64,000 bases of DNA. Source: Nakamurella leprariae. GTDB lineage: Bacteria; Actinomycetota; Actinomycetes; Mycobacteriales; Nakamurellaceae. The DNA lies in NCBI RefSeq assembly GCF_016918035.1, contig NZ_JAERWK010000010.1:124001-188000 (forward strand). Direction: 5' to 3'. Under the pieces are notes generated by a model. The model was not told where the DNA came from and did not search any database. It saw only the letters and a program-made list of their open reading frames with translations. Positions 20,924-27,644 of this stretch are shown in pieces. A program made the translations under genes and the position numbers. Within the stretch, counting starts at the first letter, position 1; the number at the start of each line of letters is the position of its first letter.

Positions 20924-21184
20924 ATGACGACCACCGTTGCCGCGCCGCCCGAGCAGGGCACGGAACCGCGACACCAACCACGCACCAAGCCCTGCCGGCT
21001 GTGCGGTCACGCATACGACCAGCACGACCACTACCGCGTCGGCCTCGACTGCTCCGCCGGTCACTGCTACTGCCCCCGCTATCGGCGCCCGGATCTCCTC
21101 GGCCGGGCGTTGGACTGGTTGGTGGAGCGGTCGACCGTGCCGGAGGCCGCGTACACGGATAGCCCGCTGGGTGTGATCCGGTGA
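20924..21184 (+). CDS. Small zinc-ribbon-like phage protein
   Basis: An 86-residue protein with CRLCGHAYDQHDHYRVG followed by CSAGHCYCPRY, a Cys/His arrangement likely to bind zinc. The ATG at 20924 was chosen over an upstream in-frame start because the promoter -10 box lies six bases before it. It is first in a seven-gene rightward cluster with overlapping junctions. Function is unknown; regulation by the adjacent inverted repeat is inferred. Confidence 0.6.
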   Translation: MTTTVAAPPEQGTEPRHQPRTKPCRLCGHAYDQHDHYRVGLDCSAGHCYCPRYRRPDLLGRALDWLVERSTVPEAAYTDSPLGVIR

Positions 21185-22005
21185 CCGGCCCGAGCGAGTT
21201 GACCGCTCAGGAGCGGGCGATGCGCGCGGTGACCTCATGCGCTGACCGCGGCCCCGCACCCGCCCCGGAGGGCATGTTGGTCGAGGAGCGTGAGCGGTCC
21301 CTGGCGAGCATCCGGCAGCGGGCGGAGCGGTGGCGCCGGATCGCGGGCACCGGGATGGCGACGATCGCGCAGGACGACGCGCTGTTCCTCCTGGCCGAGC
21401 TGGACGCCGTAACCGCCGAACGGGACGACGCGCGGCGCCTGTCGGTCGGGTACCGCACCGAGGCCCGCGCGAAGGCGGCCACGGTCAAGACGGTCGCCGC
21501 CAACCTGGACCGCATCCGGCGCGTCTACGACGCTGCGGTGACGTACATCGGATGGCGGTCGACGGACACACTGCACGCCCTCGAAGCCGCGGTGAACGTG
21601 GACGCTGCCCGCGCGTCGGTGCCCGTCACCGAGCCCGCCCCGGCGGCAGATGCCGTGGAGCGGGTCGCTCGGATCATCGCCCGCGAGAGCCTGGACGTGC
21701 ACGGCGTTGACGAGGCCACGCAGCAGGCGATCAACGACCGCCGGTGGCCGAACTACGCGGACGTGGCGGCCACCATTGTCGCCGCACTGGACGACCCCGC
21801 CCCGGCGTCCGAGCCGATCGGGTACGTCGCGGTCGAGCGGCTCACCGGCTACGTGATGGTCCTCCCGACCGACGCCGACACCGCACCGATCCCGGCCGCG
21901 TTCAGCAGCTACTCGGCGGACCTGCTCGCCCGCCCGCGCCTGGACGTCCGGCCCGTCGTCTGCGCTCTGGTGCCCGTCACCGACCAGGAGGCCGACCGTG
22001 GGTGA
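21181..22005 (+). CDS. Modular phage protein with coiled-coil N-terminus and shared C-terminal module
   Basis: A 274-residue protein starting at GTG 21181 (GTGA overlap). Residues 1-130 are helical and charged (RERSLASIRQRAERWRRIAG). A SVPVTEPAPAAD linker leads to a ~60-residue domain, then PAPASEPIGYVAVERLTG begins a C-terminal module that is also found at the end of the next gene, finishing in VPVTDQEADRG. No enzyme motif is recognised. The repeated junction sequences suggest assembly from interchangeable modules. Confidence 0.6.
   Translation: MTGPSELTAQERAMRAVTSCADRGPAPAPEGMLVEERERSLASIRQRAERWRRIAGTGMATIAQDDALFLLAELDAVTAERDDARRLSVGYRTEARAKAATVKTVAANLDRIRRVYDAAVTYIGWRSTDTLHALEAAVNVDAARASVPVTEPAPAADAVERVARIIARESLDVHGVDEATQQAINDRRWPNYADVAATIVAALDDPAPASEPIGYVAVERLTGYVMVLPTDADTAPIPAAFSSYSADLLARPRLDVRPVVCALVPVTDQEADRG
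21618..21643 (+). repeat. Junction repeat, internal copy 1
   Basis: GGTGCCCGTCACC followed by GAGCCCGCCCCGG, in frame as SVPVTEPAPA between two domains. It is identical over 26 bases to 22600-22625. GGTG and CACC can pair around a five-base loop. Confidence 0.7.
21969..21997 (+). repeat. Junction repeat, start-associated copy 1
   Basis: GGTGCCCGTCACC plus GACCAGGAGGCCGACC, ending directly at the GTG start of the next gene (21998). The AGGAGG within it is that gene's ribosome site, and the same bases encode VPVTDQEADR at the end of the upstream gene. Confidence 0.75.
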
Positions 22006-23017
22006 CCCGACGAACTTCGTGGAGGCGAACGCCCTGCTGGCCGCGCAGGCCGAGGACTACGACGAGGCCCGCCGGATCATCGGCGCGATGCTGCCGGGCG
22101 AGCGGAGCGAGCTGGCCCACGCGGCTCGCTACGTGGCCGCCCTCTGCCTGCGCGAGAACGACCGCGCCGGCTGGGCCGCGGCCAATCCGTCGATGGGGCA
22201 CAACCCCGGCTTCACCGCCGTCATCGAGCCGTCCGACCCGATGACGTGGTCGGTGCCCGTCACCGAGCCCGAGCCGCCGGCCTGGTCGTTCGCCGAGCAC
22301 CTACAGCGCCAGTCCGACTTCTCGCAGCGCACGTTCGGGCCGGGTCTGCGGACGGCTGGGCTCATCGACCACATCACCAAGGAGCTGGCCGAGCTGGCCG
22401 CCGAGCCCGAGGACATGTCGGAGCGGATCGATCTGGTCATCCTCGCGCTGGACGGCGCACTGCGACTGGCGCACTACCGCGGCGACCCGGTGACCGCGGT
22501 GATCGACGCCCTGGTCGCGAAGCAGGAGCGGAACGAGGCGCGGACCTGGCCGGATTGGCGCACGGCGCCCGAAGGCAAGGCGATCGAGCACGACCGGTCG
22601 GTGCCCGTCACCGAGCCCGCCCCGGTCATCACCCCGGGCGCGACGCCATGGTCGATCTGCTGCTGCTTCCACTGCGGACCGCCGTGGCGAAAGGACCCGC
22701 TGTGGGAGTCGGACAACCACCCGCGCGGTTCGTGGATGGCGCTGTGCCCGACGTGCGGCAGCAAGCGGTGTCGGGGTGCGTCCGACCATCGCACCGGCTG
22801 CGACGCGGTCGAGCAACAGGAAGAGGCCGCACTGCTCGATCTCACCAAGCCCGCCCCGGCGGCCGAGCCGATCGGGTGGGTCGTGGTCGACAGGGATCTA
22901 GACCTGGTCTACGGCAACATCTTCACCGACCTGGATCGTGCGCGCGATCACGCCGATGAACCCGGCTACCGCCTCTACACGCTGGTGCCCCTCACTGACC
23001 AGGAGGCCGACCGATGA
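21998..23017 (+). CDS. Modular protein with DUF550 (dATP/dGTP pyrophosphohydrolase-type) and zinc-knuckle domains
   Basis: A 339-residue protein in four parts. Residues 1-80 are an uncharacterised helical domain. Residues ~97-190 match DUF550, the MazG-like dNTP pyrophosphohydrolase family: FAEHLQRQSDFSQRTFGPG, HITKELAELAAEPEDM, ERIDLVILALDGALR (acidic metal-binding helices) and ARTWPDW. Then come a Cys-rich part (ICCCFHCGPPW, LCPTCGSKRC) and the shared C-terminal module. SVPVTEP linkers separate the parts. It would lower specific dNTPs or cleanse modified ones, adjusting pools for phage replication. The ribosome site lies in the repeat. Confidence 0.75.
   Translation: MGDPTNFVEANALLAAQAEDYDEARRIIGAMLPGERSELAHAARYVAALCLRENDRAGWAAANPSMGHNPGFTAVIEPSDPMTWSVPVTEPEPPAWSFAEHLQRQSDFSQRTFGPGLRTAGLIDHITKELAELAAEPEDMSERIDLVILALDGALRLAHYRGDPVTAVIDALVAKQERNEARTWPDWRTAPEGKAIEHDRSVPVTEPAPVITPGATPWSICCCFHCGPPWRKDPLWESDNHPRGSWMALCPTCGSKRCRGASDHRTGCDAVEQQEEAALLDLTKPAPAAEPIGWVVVDRDLDLVYGNIFTDLDRARDHADEPGYRLYTLVPLTDQEADR
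22252..22271 (+). repeat. Junction repeat, internal copy 2
   Basis: GGTGCCCGTCACC plus GAGCCCG, in frame as SVPVTEPEP immediately before the DUF550 domain. Confidence 0.65.
22600..22625 (+). repeat. Junction repeat, internal copy 3
   Basis: GGTGCCCGTCACC plus GAGCCCGCCCCGG, in frame as SVPVTEPAP between the DUF550 and zinc-knuckle domains; identical to 21618-21643. Confidence 0.7.
22984..23013 (+). repeat. Junction repeat, start-associated copy 2 (variant)
   Basis: GGTGCCCCTCACT plus GACCAGGAGGCCGACCG, ending directly at ATG 23014. Two changes in the first half weaken the GGTG/CACC pairing, while the ribosome-site half is unchanged. Confidence 0.7.
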
Positions 23018-23421
23018 GCGACCACGCCGTGACGTTCGATCACTCCGACTGCGAGCACGACGAGGGCGACTGCTCGCCGTACCCGACGTTCGTCTGCACC
23101 GCACCGGTGGACGCCGACTGCCGCACCACCTGCCAGCCTGCCAACCCCCGGGACTACTGCGACTGGTGGACCCGTTGCGAGACCTGCGACGGCTACGGCC
23201 ACCCGCCGATCACCGGCCCGCACTGCACCGAGGGCCACCCGCTGGTCTCGGGCCAGTGCAACGCCGTCGAGTGGTTCATGTACGACGACTGGCAGGCAGC
23301 CAGCGACGAGGGCCACCCTACGCAGGTCTGGCCCGACGGCCCGATCGACATTGAGTACACCGGCGACTCCTACGCCTGGTCTTTCGCGGTGCCCGTCACC
23401 GACCAGGAGGCCGACCGATGA
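23014..23421 (+). CDS. Cys-rich phage protein ending in the shared tail
   Basis: A 135-residue acidic protein rich in Cys (FDHSDCEHDEGDC; CRTTCQPANPRDYCDWW; CETCDGYGHPP) and ending in VPVTDQEADR. The C-terminal half has WFMYDDWQAASDEG. It could bind one or two metal ions. Start ATG and ribosome site are supplied by the junction repeat. The family is not recognised. Confidence 0.6.
   Translation: MSDHAVTFDHSDCEHDEGDCSPYPTFVCTAPVDADCRTTCQPANPRDYCDWWTRCETCDGYGHPPITGPHCTEGHPLVSGQCNAVEWFMYDDWQAASDEGHPTQVWPDGPIDIEYTGDSYAWSFAVPVTDQEADR
23388..23417 (+). repeat. Junction repeat, start-associated copy 3
   Basis: GGTGCCCGTCACC plus GACCAGGAGGCCGACCG, ending directly at ATG 23418. It matches the copy at 21969 base for base over the shared 29 positions. 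Confidence 0.75.
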
Positions 23422-23669
23422 GCACGCAGACGCGCGTCCGCACGGCCCGCAAGCTGCACCGCTGCGACCGGTGGTGCGACGAGTGCACCCGATGGGTCGA
23501 GCCCGGCGACCGCTACGTCGAGCACACCGAGTTCCCCAGTGGGGATGCCGCGCTCGCCACGAACGGACGTCCGGTGCACCTGGCCGAGTGCCGGCCCTGC
23601 GCTGAGCACTCCGGCCGAGGCGACCTGTTCGTGCCCGTCACCGAAGGGACCGAGACCCATGCCCAGTGA
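23418..23669 (+). CDS. Small zinc-ribbon-like phage protein
   Basis: An 83-residue protein with RKLHRCDRWCDECTRWVEPG and later ECRPCAEHSG, a pattern of two CxxC-like pairs that suggests one zinc site; similar short proteins with a YVEHTEFP-like core are frequent in actinophages. It overlaps the next gene by 11 bases. The ribosome site is within the junction repeat. Role unknown. Confidence 0.6.
   Translation: MSTQTRVRTARKLHRCDRWCDECTRWVEPGDRYVEHTEFPSGDAALATNGRPVHLAECRPCAEHSGRGDLFVPVTEGTETHAQ
23630..23658 (+). repeat. Junction repeat, start-associated copy 4 (degenerate second half)
   Basis: CGTGCCCGTCACCGA followed by AGGGACCGAGACCC, ending directly at ATG 23659. The first half is conserved, while the ribosome-site half has changed to AAGGGAC. 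Confidence 0.65.
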
Positions 23670-24087
23670 CGACCAGGCCGTCGACCCGCGCATCGACGCG
23701 GTGGCGGCGCTCCTGTGGCTCCGTGACTACGGCGACGACTCGTGGTGGCAGCTCATCGCGGGCGATGTCACCGTGGCCGAGCGCCTGCAGCCCGACGACG
23801 ATCTCCGCCCCCGTTCGCCTGAGGAGTGGATGGAGCGCGAGGTCCACTACTACCGGCAGGGCGCCGCGTTCTTGCTGACCCGGGCTGACGCCGTCGACCC
23901 GTTGCGACAGCTCGTCACGGCCCCCACGGACGAGCAGGTCGAGCGGATCACCCGACGCATCCTCGGCCCCCGCCCGGCTCGCCCGACTCTCGGGCAGGCG
24001 TGGCGGCACGACGACGAGATGCCGGCCACGGTCCGCGCTGTCCTGGCTGCTGTGGCCGCCGAGACCAGCACCGGCGGTGACCAGTGA
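23659..24087 (+). CDS. Phage protein, unknown function
   Basis: A 142-residue soluble, helical protein (RIDAVAALLWLRDYGDDSWW; QLVTAPTDEQVERITRRIL; RHDDEMPATVRAVLAAVAAE). No Cys cluster or catalytic motif is seen. It starts at ATG 23659 just after a junction-repeat copy, and its stop overlaps the next GTG (GTGA). Possibly a regulatory or replication accessory protein, inferred from location only. Confidence 0.6.
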   Translation: MPSDDQAVDPRIDAVAALLWLRDYGDDSWWQLIAGDVTVAERLQPDDDLRPRSPEEWMEREVHYYRQGAAFLLTRADAVDPLRQLVTAPTDEQVERITRRILGPRPARPTLGQAWRHDDEMPATVRAVLAAVAAETSTGGDQ

Positions 24088-24503
24088 CCTGGAAGCCGAC
24101 CAACCTCCGAGAGCTCATCCCGCTGGACCCGACGTGGACGCTGGAGATCGCGATCCGTGAGGAGTGCGACCGACGCGGCCACCCGCCCCGCACCGTGAAC
24201 CCGACGTGGGCCGAGCCCGGCCGGCCGATGGGGCCAGTCACGTTCTGCCGATGCGGCGCCCACCGACAGGTCGGCGTGCACACCACCGTCGGGCACCCGT
24301 GCCACCAGTGCTTCGTCGAGTGGCACGACCAGTGCAGCGGGCGGCCGCACCCGGCTGATCCCGGCGACCCAGACCGGGGGCGCCCGCCGATGCCGGCCGG
24401 TGTCTCCGGCTGCAACTGCGAGCACCATGCGCCGCCGATCGAACCGGCGCCGTGCGACCTCCCCACTATGACGCTGTTCGACCTGCCCGGGGGTGCGGCA
24501 TGA
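24084..24503 (+). CDS. Cys/His-rich phage protein
   Basis: A 139-residue protein with a helical N-terminus (NLRELIPLDPTWTLEIAIRE) and three Cys/His clusters: FCRCGAHRQVG, HPCHQCFVEWHDQCSG, and CNCEHHAPP. One or two zinc sites are likely. It starts at a GTG overlapping the upstream stop and overlaps the following ATG. The family is not recognised. Confidence 0.6.
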   Translation: MTWKPTNLRELIPLDPTWTLEIAIREECDRRGHPPRTVNPTWAEPGRPMGPVTFCRCGAHRQVGVHTTVGHPCHQCFVEWHDQCSGRPHPADPGDPDRGRPPMPAGVSGCNCEHHAPPIEPAPCDLPTMTLFDLPGGAA

Positions 24504-25024
24504 CCGAGACGCCCCGCGTCGTGCTCCCGGAGCCGGTGGAGTCGGTGATGCCGTGGCGTGGCCCGTGCGGGCTGTGTGGTGGCCCGGACGCCCGGCACCG
24601 GGTGCTCGACGCGATCCAGGCCGACGCCCGCTGGCCGGGGAGCCCGGAGTTCACCGCGGAGACCTACGACCTGCCCGTCGCCGTCGTGGAGTTCATCGCG
24701 GAGCACTGGCGGTCGGAGACCGAGACGTGGTCGGTGCCGGCTGGCGACCGGGCGGTGAAGCGTCGTCGGCGTCGTGAGACCGTGGGTCGCGTGAGCAAAC
24801 GCCGCCGCGTGTACCTGTCGGAGAAGGACATCGCTGCCCGGGTCGGGTTGCAGGCCGGGACGGTGCGGAAGTACCACTCTGAGGGGCGGTTGCCGGAGCC
24901 TGCGGTGTCGATCGGTTTGGATGAGGCGACGCAGGTCGATGGGTGGACTGTGGAGCAGGTGGATGCGTGGCAGGCGGGACGCCCGGGGAAACCTGGCCGG
25001 CCACGGAAGAGCCCGGACGCGTGA
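24500..25024 (+). CDS. DNA-binding protein with MerR/AlpA-like HTH and C-terminal AT-hook
   Basis: A 174-residue protein. The N-terminus has a CGLCGG pair; the C-terminal half carries VYLSEKDIAARVGLQAGTVR, a helix-turn-helix like that of excisionases and AlpA/MerR-type regulators, then YHSEGRLPEP and WTVEQVDAWQAGR, and ends in KPGRPRKS, an AT-hook core (GRPRK). It ends the phage early-type cluster and is the best candidate for an excisionase or transcription regulator in this window. No integrase lies beside it. Confidence 0.7.
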   Translation: MTETPRVVLPEPVESVMPWRGPCGLCGGPDARHRVLDAIQADARWPGSPEFTAETYDLPVAVVEFIAEHWRSETETWSVPAGDRAVKRRRRRETVGRVSKRRRVYLSEKDIAARVGLQAGTVRKYHSEGRLPEPAVSIGLDEATQVDGWTVEQVDAWQAGRPGKPGRPRKSPDA

Positions 25025-26252: not shown

Positions 26253-27182
26253 ATGACCGGGTCCACACTCATCGGCGCCCTGGTCGGTGGCCTGGCCGCC
26301 GCCGGACTGCTGCTTTCCGCCCTGGCCACGCCGCCGGCCCGCCGGATCACGCTGGCCGATCGGATCGCCCCGGCCCTGCGGGAACGGGACCGGCCGTCGC
26401 AGCTGCTGTCCGGTCCGGACGGGCGCGGCGCGGGCGGCGTGCTCGCACCGCTGCTGCACCGGCTCTCACGGCTGGCCGACCGGCTGCTCGGCGGGCAGGC
26501 GTCAGTCCGGCGGCGACTCGCCGCCCTGGGTTCGCCGCTCACCGTGGAGCAGTTCCGCACCGAGCAGGTGCTCTGGGGCGCGGCCGGCTGCGCGATCGGC
26601 ATCGGGCTCAGCCTGGTGGCCGTCGTGGTCGGGCAGAGCAGTCCCGTGGTGCTGCTGGTATTGCTCGGGGTGTGCGTCCTGGCCGGGGCGCTGGGCCGCG
26701 ACTGGTGGCTCAGCCAGCGCGTCGCCCAGCAGGAGACGGAGGCGATCGCCGAGTTCCCGGTGATCGCCGAGATGCTGGCCCTGGCCGTGACCGCCGGCGA
26801 AGGTCCGCTGGGCGCGATCGACCGGGTGACTCGCCTGGCCCACGGTGAACTGGTGCGCCAGCTGGGCGCGATCGTGGCCGACACCCGATCCGGCGTCCCG
26901 CTCATCGTGGCCGTCACCGCGCTGCGCGACCGGACCCGGCTGGAACCGCTGGCCCGCTTCCTGGACGGGATGGCCGTGGCCATCGACCGCGGGACCCCGC
27001 TGGCCGACGTGCTGCGCGCACAGGCGGCCGACGTCCGGGCGCTCAGCAAGCGCCGGCTGCTGGAGAGCGGTGGCCGCAAGGAGATCGCGATGATGGTCCC
27101 GGTGGTGTTCCTCGTCCTGCCGATCACCATCGTCTTCGCCATGTTCCCGGGCCTCATCGCCATCACCACGGTGGCCGGATGA
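26253..27182 (+). CDS. tadC: TadC-like pilus assembly inner-membrane protein (T2SS F family)
   Basis: A 309-residue protein that forms the membrane platform of the Tad/Flp pilus with TadB. It has N-terminal membrane spans (TLIGALVGGLAAAGLLLSAL; two spans near residues 108-150), the cytoplasmic T2SSF domain (EFPVIAEMLALAVTAGEGPL, LDGMAVAIDRGTPLADVL) and a last span (MMVPVVFLVLPITIVFAM). The ATG overlaps a TGA in the frame expected for a lost upstream gene. tadA and tadB are not present. The stop overlaps an ATG (ATGA) that opens a non-genuine frame over flp. Confidence 0.85.
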   Translation: MTGSTLIGALVGGLAAAGLLLSALATPPARRITLADRIAPALRERDRPSQLLSGPDGRGAGGVLAPLLHRLSRLADRLLGGQASVRRRLAALGSPLTVEQFRTEQVLWGAAGCAIGIGLSLVAVVVGQSSPVVLLVLLGVCVLAGALGRDWWLSQRVAQQETEAIAEFPVIAEMLALAVTAGEGPLGAIDRVTRLAHGELVRQLGAIVADTRSGVPLIVAVTALRDRTRLEPLARFLDGMAVAIDRGTPLADVLRAQAADVRALSKRRLLESGGRKEIAMMVPVVFLVLPITIVFAMFPGLIAITTVAG

Positions 27183-27386: not shown

Positions 27387-27644
27387 GTGCTGTCCCGCCT
27401 GTTCCGTCCCGGCCTGCTGCTGCTGAGTGCCGTGGCCGGCCTGATCGCCATGATCTCCGTGTCGTCGTCCCGCCACGGCGAGTCCCCCACCGAGGACGAC
27501 CGCGACCGCGGCGACGTCCCGGGCTGGGTGATGATCACCGTCATGACGGCGATCGTGGTGATCGCCCTGCTCGCCGTGTTCCGCGAGCAGGTGCTCACCG
27601 CCGTCCAGAACGCGTTCAGCTCGGTCACCGGCAGCGGCGGCTGA
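27387..27644 (+). CDS. Flp-type pilin-like small membrane protein
   Basis: An 85-residue protein with a first span (GLLLLSAVAGLIAMISV), a charged spacer (SPTEDDRDRGDVPGW) and a second hydrophobic helix (MITVMTAIVVIALLAVF) ending in FSSVTGSGG. The GDVPGWV-helix pattern is that of actinobacterial Flp/pilin genes between tadC and tadE; the mature pilin would begin near the spacer after prepilin processing. GTG 27387 has a GGAG upstream. A hairpin follows 10 bases after the stop. Confidence 0.75.
   Translation: MLSRLFRPGLLLLSAVAGLIAMISVSSSRHGESPTEDDRDRGDVPGWVMITVMTAIVVIALLAVFREQVLTAVQNAFSSVTGSGG

Follow-up and report, generated by a model that had tools for sequence, protein, structure and literature searches.

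A short coding repeat recurs seven times in four adjoining genes of a prophage of Nakamurella leprariae and is the subject of this report. The locus lies in a stretch of 64,000 nucleotides, positions 124,001 to 188,000 of contig NZ_JAERWK010000010.1 (assembly GCF_016918035.1), which is here called the window and whose coordinates are used unless a prefix indicates otherwise; this 64-kb window sits in contig C29 of a 4.47-Mb assembly of 39 contigs. The four genes, g1 to g4, and the gene that follows them, g5, are all on the + strand. The first, g1 (21181..22005), encodes a modular protein of 274 aa with one copy of the repeat in mid-gene and a gene-end copy at its C terminus. The product of g2 (21998..23017, 339 aa) consists, in order, of an N-module, a copy, a PF04447 dATP/dGTP pyrophosphohydrolase domain, a further copy, a Cys-rich module, a B module and a gene-end copy. 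That of g3 (23014..23421, 135 aa) is Cys-rich and has VPVTDQEADR at its C terminus; that of g4 (23418..23669, 83 aa) is phrog_30261-like over residues 6-67 and then reads VPVTEGTETHAQ; and the seventh copy precedes the start of g5 (23659..24087, 142 aa).

The repeat can be represented by the 13-mer GGTGCCCGTCACC, of which five exact copies are present in the window against 0.01 expected, a count reached in none of 100 shuffles of the window. Copy 1 (21618..21630) is within g1, where it starts at codon 147 and reads SVPVTEP, and copy 2 (21969..21981) is at the 3' end of the same gene from codon 264. Copies 3 (22252..22264, codon 86) and 4 (22600..22612, codon 202) lie within g2 at the left and right borders of the PF04447 module, and copy 6 (23388..23400, codon 126) is at the 3' end of g3. 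The set is completed by two near copies: copy 5 (22984..22996), with two mismatches, begins at codon 330 in the 3' end of g2 and reads VPLTD, and copy 7 (23630..23642), with one mismatch, begins at codon 72 in the 3' end of g4. All seven fall within 2,025 bp on the + strand, are codon-aligned in their own genes and read VP(V/L)T(E/D). When up to two mismatches are allowed, the 26 matches in the window, and also the 19 of them that are scattered outside the cluster on both strands, exceed the shuffle mean of 10.4 (largest of 100 shuffles, 18). In the whole assembly, the exact 15-mer GGTGCCCGTCACCGA is found at five places, all of them in the g1-g4 locus, and five other 15-mers at up to two mismatches in the 104 kb of contig examined are in chance-like places. 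A six-frame scan of these 104 kb found seven [VL]P[VL]T[ED] peptides on the + strand, which are these copies, and one more on the minus strand at 27634.

Common to the seven copies is a core of 14 nt, GTGCCCGTCACCGA, which is read in frame at the ends of all four genes g1 to g4 and at three internal places in g1 and g2, one copy having two changes. In most cases one of two tails follows it. Tail 1, CCAGGAGGCCGACCG, provides the last codons of one gene together with a Shine-Dalgarno hexamer, and leads directly into the start of the following gene, which overlaps the first. The gene-end cassette so formed, in which core and CCAGGAGGCCGACCG precede the start of the following gene, is present three times on the + strand with no more than two mismatches in 29 nt. 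At 21970..21998 it comprises the VPVTDQEADR codons and AGGAGG, its last base being the first base of the GTG of g2, and at 22985..23013 and 23389..23417 it stands immediately 5' of the ATG of g3 and of g4, each in an ATGA overlap; the likeness at 23014 and 23418 extends through ATGAGC. The extended unit GTGCCCGTCACCGACCAGGAGGCCGACCG likewise has three occurrences at up to three mismatches, with 0.00 expected. Tail 2 (GCCC...) encodes an EP-rich linker and carries the same polypeptide onward. This linker type, TCG-core-GCCC (S VPVT EP), has three exact occurrences on the + strand, at 21616..21636, 22250..22270 and 22598..22618, and their common sequence, TCGGTGCCCGTCACCGAGCCC, would be expected 0.01 times even at up to three mismatches. 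Copy 7 ends g4 with a different tail, which lacks AGGAGG.

The original prediction, made from the sequence of this region, had counted seven copies in about 2 kb, three of them in frame as SVPVTEP, and both statements agree with what we find (five exact and two near copies at 21618-23642, the three SVPVTEP copies being inside g1 and g2). It had four copies ending exactly at a start codon, which needs correction: the 13-mer ends 16-17 nt upstream of the starts at 21998, 23014, 23418 and 23659. A ribosome site was also attributed to three of the start-linked copies; AGGAGG is present at three of the four starts but lies beyond the 13-mer, in a gap that reads GACCAGGAGGCCGACC(G) at three of the four gene ends. 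Pairing of GGTG with CACC is possible as suggested, but the hairpin has only 4 bp, with -2.4 kcal/mol for each of the five exact copies and -0.7 and -0.2 for the two variants. A role as an RNA hairpin was set aside on account of this weak pairing and of the lack of compensatory change in the variants. Two more open-frame ends of the prophage (L024 near 17921 and the window near 1531) share 16 of 16 in-frame bases, with endings in ..RTAA and a stop, and are possibly a second, smaller gene-end repeat.

The copies in g2 flank a recognisable domain. Residues 104-199 (22307..22594, + strand, E = 1e-20) are assigned to PF04447 (DUF550) at 74.2 bits against a curated cut-off of 23, and to phrog_4826 at E = 3.7e-43. 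When g2 is aligned with seven relatives, H198 (of IEH) is the last invariant position, and g2 then continues DRSVPVTEP, with VPVT from residue 202. At the other side, three short relatives (Pat3 gp109, BENtherdunthat gp65 and Ohgeesy gp61) have start codons that fall opposite g2 residues 92-93 in the alignment, just beyond VPVT at 86-89. When full-length g2 was used as the query, 34 of the 40 alignments listed (of 174 records) ended at residues 198-201. PF04447 relatives are encoded at 288 loci in viral_contigs, of which the best 80 were kept, and the sequence after IEH was readable by pattern in 75 of these and not in the other five. Many of the loci are near-identical, mostly with a 64-residue tail, so that the 38 distinct contexts, and not the loci, are the fair count. 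Eleven contexts end within 11 residues, 17 share a related 64-residue tail, two share a 137-residue tail and the remaining eight run 87 to 445 residues further. Judging by these contexts, the sequence beyond the 3' border, where copy 4 sits, varies among PF04447 relatives.

For g4, a match to phrog_30261 over residues 6-67 (E = 1.8e-6) and the beginning of copy 7 at residue 72 suggest that this copy is at a domain border too. Family searches with g1, g3 and the other g2 modules gave no family, and searches with modules g1A, g1B, g2B and the Cys-rich module gave no usable homologues. The AlphaFold model of g2, made with no alignment, is of poor quality as a whole, with a mean predicted local distance difference test score (pLDDT) of 44.6, and only the C-terminal B module is usable (block means 73-88, residues 291-330); it is predicted to be beta-beta-alpha-beta, the last strand ending at 329 and VPLT beginning at 330. 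That the copies mark domain borders, as had been proposed, is sustained for the PF04447 module, which is bounded by two copies and has a varying 3' context, but goes further than the other modules allow, as these are without relatives.

With the codon usage of 16 open reading frames of the window, a random VPVT would be spelled GTGCCCGTCACC with a probability of 0.039. All four codons are the same in six of the seven copies, whereas at least six were alike in only 4 of 300,000 random draws, which treated all seven as VPVT although one is actually VPLT. GTG, GTC and ACC are common codons locally, and CCC is the second proline codon (0.29). Such likeness at the DNA level, in a single register, points to a shared recent descent of the copies. 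Among the 66 pairs formed by 12 modules, g1B and g2B alone are related (Z 9.4), the next pair being g1A and g2B with Z 2.9 over a PAPAA match. Each B module opens with a second repeated linker on the + strand, PAPASEPIG... in g1 (21796..21836) and PAPAAEPIG... in g2 (22850..22890), the two stretches being 90% identical. Since, apart from g1B and g2B, the modules that separate the copies are unrelated to one another, one simple tandem duplication fails to explain the layout.

The reading that we favour, with slightly better than even confidence, is that the repeat is a junction cassette spread by recombination in an accessory block of a prophage that encodes RecE and RecT, and that its core doubles as a domain linker. 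The copies would have spread by homology-directed exchange as unrelated modules were added or lost, the prophage's own RecE/RecT being the probable agent. As all copies share the codon alignment, the frame would survive a crossover between any two of them, and a gene end could become a domain linker or a domain linker a gene end. The gene-end cassette would also couple the translation of neighbouring genes, as the overlaps and the AGGAGG suggest. In the accessible part of PMC3945230, Rad52-like phage recombinases, including RecT, are described as working on short, diverged homologies of about 100-700 bp, and phage genomes as usually without repeated sequences, which is why repeats in a RecE/RecT prophage are notable. 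The original prediction had offered short homologies that let modules recombine or genes fuse; this is now the best-supported reading, with the exchange as its presumed step.

Relatives of the locus were sought by pattern, protein and DNA searches. The exact gene-end pattern was found at no locus in viral_contigs and at two in genome_contigs, in unrelated frames; a degenerate gene-end pattern gave four viral loci and the linker pattern one, all in chance-like contexts and unrelated frames. The queries P0001 and P0002 revealed no relative in viral_contigs, and a search with the integrase found nothing. P0001 had no match in the phage collection, and its best match outside its own genome among 394 genomes of the class had E = 0.0013; P0003 gave matches only at E of at least 0.4. 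In 298 genomes of the order, P0002 had matches in G010 and G154 and otherwise only in the genome it comes from. A DNA search with the block hit 284 of 397 genomes of the order; almost all of the listed hits were short GC-rich stretches, and the only meaningful ones were of the PF04447 stretch in G154 and G010. A weak match to g4 was seen in G006 (29%, E = 0.015).

A portal search gave matches in 7 of the 298 order genomes, and the best outside its own genome was to G011, of the same genus (E = 1.3e-139). The G011 prophage, a distant relative in a sister species, shares recE (49%), terL and portal (52%) and several tail genes, and none of g1-g8 has a match in it at E 0.05 (in 80,000 of the contig's 92,891 bases). 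Not far ahead of its integrase, successive open frames have the endings LGEGGADNG, PAEGGANNG, SAEGGA and PAEGGDSNG. This gene-end repeat (AEGG...NG), with its ribosome site and overlapping start, extends over L157:11120-12127 (G011:C261:51120-52127). Its unit GCCGAGGGTGGTGCCAACAATGG was counted three times at up to two mismatches, with 0.00 expected at up to three, and a fourth copy is shortened; the unit includes the ribosome-site-like GAGGGTGG as well as the start that follows. From sequence comparison, a gene-end cassette at such a place is not unique to the present prophage, though its sequence differs. G006 showed no such dispersed repeat, and G271 has one three-copy array.

Three surveys bear on how unusual the repeat is. 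Dispersed 13-mers at least 80 bp apart and within 2.5 kb were scanned in 86 sources (1,008,161 bases; G011, G006 and G271 were not included). Six copies were reached only in this prophage and in L132, all others having three or fewer, the start-associated sequences (SAS) of TM4 included; at L132:9132-9636, six copies of GGTGTCCGGCAAT spaced by 90-108 bp form a regular array in a viral contig. In a start-anchored survey of 5,429 junction pairs from 91 sources, matches of at least 22/30 were found only in this prophage, at three junctions, and the next best pair among the 22 sources listed had 19; the between-locus null of this survey (958/200,000) is inflated by near-identical viral loci and was not used as a probability. 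Codon-aligned pairs among the last 14 codons of open frames reached at least 15/16 in 20 of 29,953 within-source comparisons against 2 of 54,351 between-source ones, a ratio that is a guide only, as the null came from 11 actinobacterial sources and the within-source set from 93. This prophage accounts for five of the 20 pairs (four from the cassette), G271 for three, G011 for two and TM4 for two; three of the 20 (L106, L125, L140) are paralogous genes, and one of the 20 is in host DNA. In viral contigs fetched with PF04447, one gene stretch is present in three related versions, of which the third has many Asn codons, at L106:8108, 8735 and 9450 and L125:2155, 2768 and 3488, and the same pattern recurs at L069:1218, 1699 and 2338 and L140:129, 822 and 1509. 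These look like diversity-generating retroelements with two variable repeats and a template-like third copy.

Several observations weigh against a cassette spread by recombination. The homology it offers is only 14-29 nt, compared with the 100-700 bp or so given in the available portion of PMC3945230. The exact 15-mer is found in 5 of 16 congeners, in six hits, once or twice each and none clustered; at least four of the six are in real-looking frames of unrelated proteins, and this spelling of VPVT[E/D] is thus not exotic in the genus. Selection at the nucleotide level could have kept the codons alike instead. Known families cover only two modules, so that borders could be tested at three of the seven copies, and in the search with full-length g2 six of the 40 listed alignments continue beyond the module to residues 219-256. 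The repeat of G011 is partly Shine-Dalgarno sequence, lacks linker copies and escaped the start-anchored survey (best pair 19/30). The further copies in relatives that the original prediction looked for did not appear in the searches above: the exact and degenerate patterns, which diverged copies could escape, found the cassette in no other phage or genome searched, and with it no donor. As to variation of content at the copies, it is seen at the PF04447 border, but no relative was found in which content is exchanged exactly at a copy. The idea was to have been given up if relatives had neither copies nor varying content and a recent tandem duplication explained the likeness; no further copies were indeed found in relatives by these searches, yet content varies at the testable border and a tandem duplication fails.

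The same facts may be explained in other ways. At the protein level, VPVTEP and VPVTDQEADR might be a docking peptide, degradation tag or cleavable linker of co-operating phage proteins, and the DNA likeness would be secondary. VP(V/L)T(E/D) is preserved in frame in every copy, and four copies are C-terminal, where such tags act, but three are internal, the identical codons would be unneeded (4 in 300,000 draws), and the peptide is not kept beside the PF04447 module in the relatives seen, either the seven aligned or the 38 contexts; we regard this explanation as unlikely. A series of tandem duplications of units of module plus tail, the modules having diverged past recognition, would account for the clear relationship of g1B and g2B and for their common second linker. 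It is harder to reconcile with the absence of clear residual similarity between the other modules, though most copies are undrifted even at synonymous sites, and with the wide family that PF04447 has of its own, and it seems to us decidedly unlikely.

A start-associated regulatory element, similar to SAS or extended SAS (ESAS), would be a nucleotide signal for the ribosome, an RNA or a phage protein that is tolerated inside genes. Such repeats are known in actinobacterial phages, as the accessible parts of PMC3203893 and PMC7302621 describe, and the spacing of 16-17 nt to four starts is constant, with AGGAGG at three. Three of the seven copies are not near a start, however, the seventh is without AGGAGG, the hairpin is weak and uncompensated, and a binding site would not require a single codon register and strand in all seven, so that we consider a signal of this type improbable. 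Chance, combined with coding and ribosome-site constraint in GC-rich DNA, has in its favour the local abundance of GTG, GTC and ACC codons, the need of start-overlapping gene ends for a ribosome site and the single occurrences of the 15-mer in congeners (5/16). Against it stand the 100 shuffles without five exact copies, the use of CCC, only the second proline codon, the position of the core upstream of the ribosome site and the rarity of comparable gene-end repeats between sources (2/54,351), and it can hardly be the explanation.

The layout had been likened to the SAS of cluster K phages, which are, in the consulted sections of PMC3203893, 13-bp non-palindromic repeats typically 3-7 bp before starts. 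These SAS and the SAS-like motif of Microbacterium cluster EF (accessible text of PMC7302621) do resemble the present repeat in recurring at successive starts outside the structural genes, nearly always in one orientation and with an AGGAG-type ribosome site; here, all seven copies are on the + strand, after the recognised tail genes. The likeness goes no further. The SAS consensus GGGATAGGAGCCC at up to two mismatches has two matches in the window against 1.84 expected, which is chance level, whereas TM4 as a positive control (first 50,000 bases) gave nine against 0.90. In the part of PMC3203893 consulted, the 13 bp of SAS are at the position of the ribosome site, while the present core, of different sequence, is coding and stops 16-17 nt short of the starts, inside the preceding coding sequence and 5' of the ribosome site; three of its copies recur inside genes, far from any gene start. 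PMC12699233, in the portion available, surveys SAS in cluster K and mentions a few SAS matches within open reading frames, and the accessible text of PMC7302621 adds more start-associated repeats in Microbacterium phages. Those of clusters EC, EI and EG are alike in having one repeat per gene junction and a group-specific sequence, but are in intergenic gaps whereas the prophage repeat is translated. No SAS-type repeat is described as marking domain borders in the sections consulted of these three papers. Modular phage proteins with DUF550/PF04447, some labelled EaA-like or host nuclease inhibitor, also combine the same module with varying partners, and at no other locus in the 13-mer survey was there a comparable dispersed repeat.

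Boundary sequences of phages, known from lambdoid work, are common to different phages at a particular border. The present repeat, by contrast, serves at many borders of a single prophage, is translated in frame and is found at domain borders as well; with the patterns searched, no sharing of it by phages that exchange modules was seen. The accessible part of PMC3029335 reports short conserved phage boundary sequences and the proposal that homology at module borders serves shuffling by general recombination. Rickettsia palindromic elements, which are in-frame insertions, were set aside as much longer and without a tie to borders. No description of a repeat used at both gene ends and domain linkers was found in the partial texts of the literature searched, most subscription journals lying outside it. 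The repeat is best read as a variant of phage boundary sequences and start-associated repeats and not as cluster K SAS.

The right part of the prophage occupies the first 25-26 kb of the window, and GC is about 72% across the 104 kb examined. Its integrase gene is on the minus strand at L024:8678-10036, followed by the RecE-like (YqaJ) and RecT genes (L024:11530-13508), next to which is a DnaB-like helicase gene. Genes with terminase, portal, endolysin and tail matches are in the first part of the window, and g1-g4 (21181-23669) are downstream of the tail genes, near the right end. The earlier name 'early-type cluster' is a loose one, as RecE, RecT and the DnaB-like helicase are at the opposite, integrase end and the cluster comes after the tail genes. 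Close to the right end, at 24452-25024, is a gene like those of phage DNA-binding proteins or excisionases (phrog_597, phrog_66). Genes with T2SSF domains, presumably of the Tad pilus type, flank the prophage at 26253-27182 and at L024:7104-8693 (C29:111104-112693), and neighbouring genes of one host pilus locus may thus be kept apart by the prophage. As attachment core, GGTCCGGATCGG, a match of 12 bp between L024:8666 and window 26211, is a weak candidate; several matches of this length exist.

A wider proposal is that the core is an interchangeable joint of gene ends and domain linkers, that RecE/RecT recombination would turn genes into domains and back, and that such joints would be lineage-specific (VPVT here, AEGG in the sister-species prophage); we see in this a real possibility, though a doubtful one. 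How phage genes and domains are swapped at clean borders is an old open question, and boundary homologies are a long-standing proposal that has rarely been seen. In one seam sequence at four successive gene ends and at domain borders, in a prophage with recombinase genes of its own, there is a concrete place for testing it. Such a joint would provide a simple route by which small phage genes may fuse into multi-domain proteins with both frame and translation kept.

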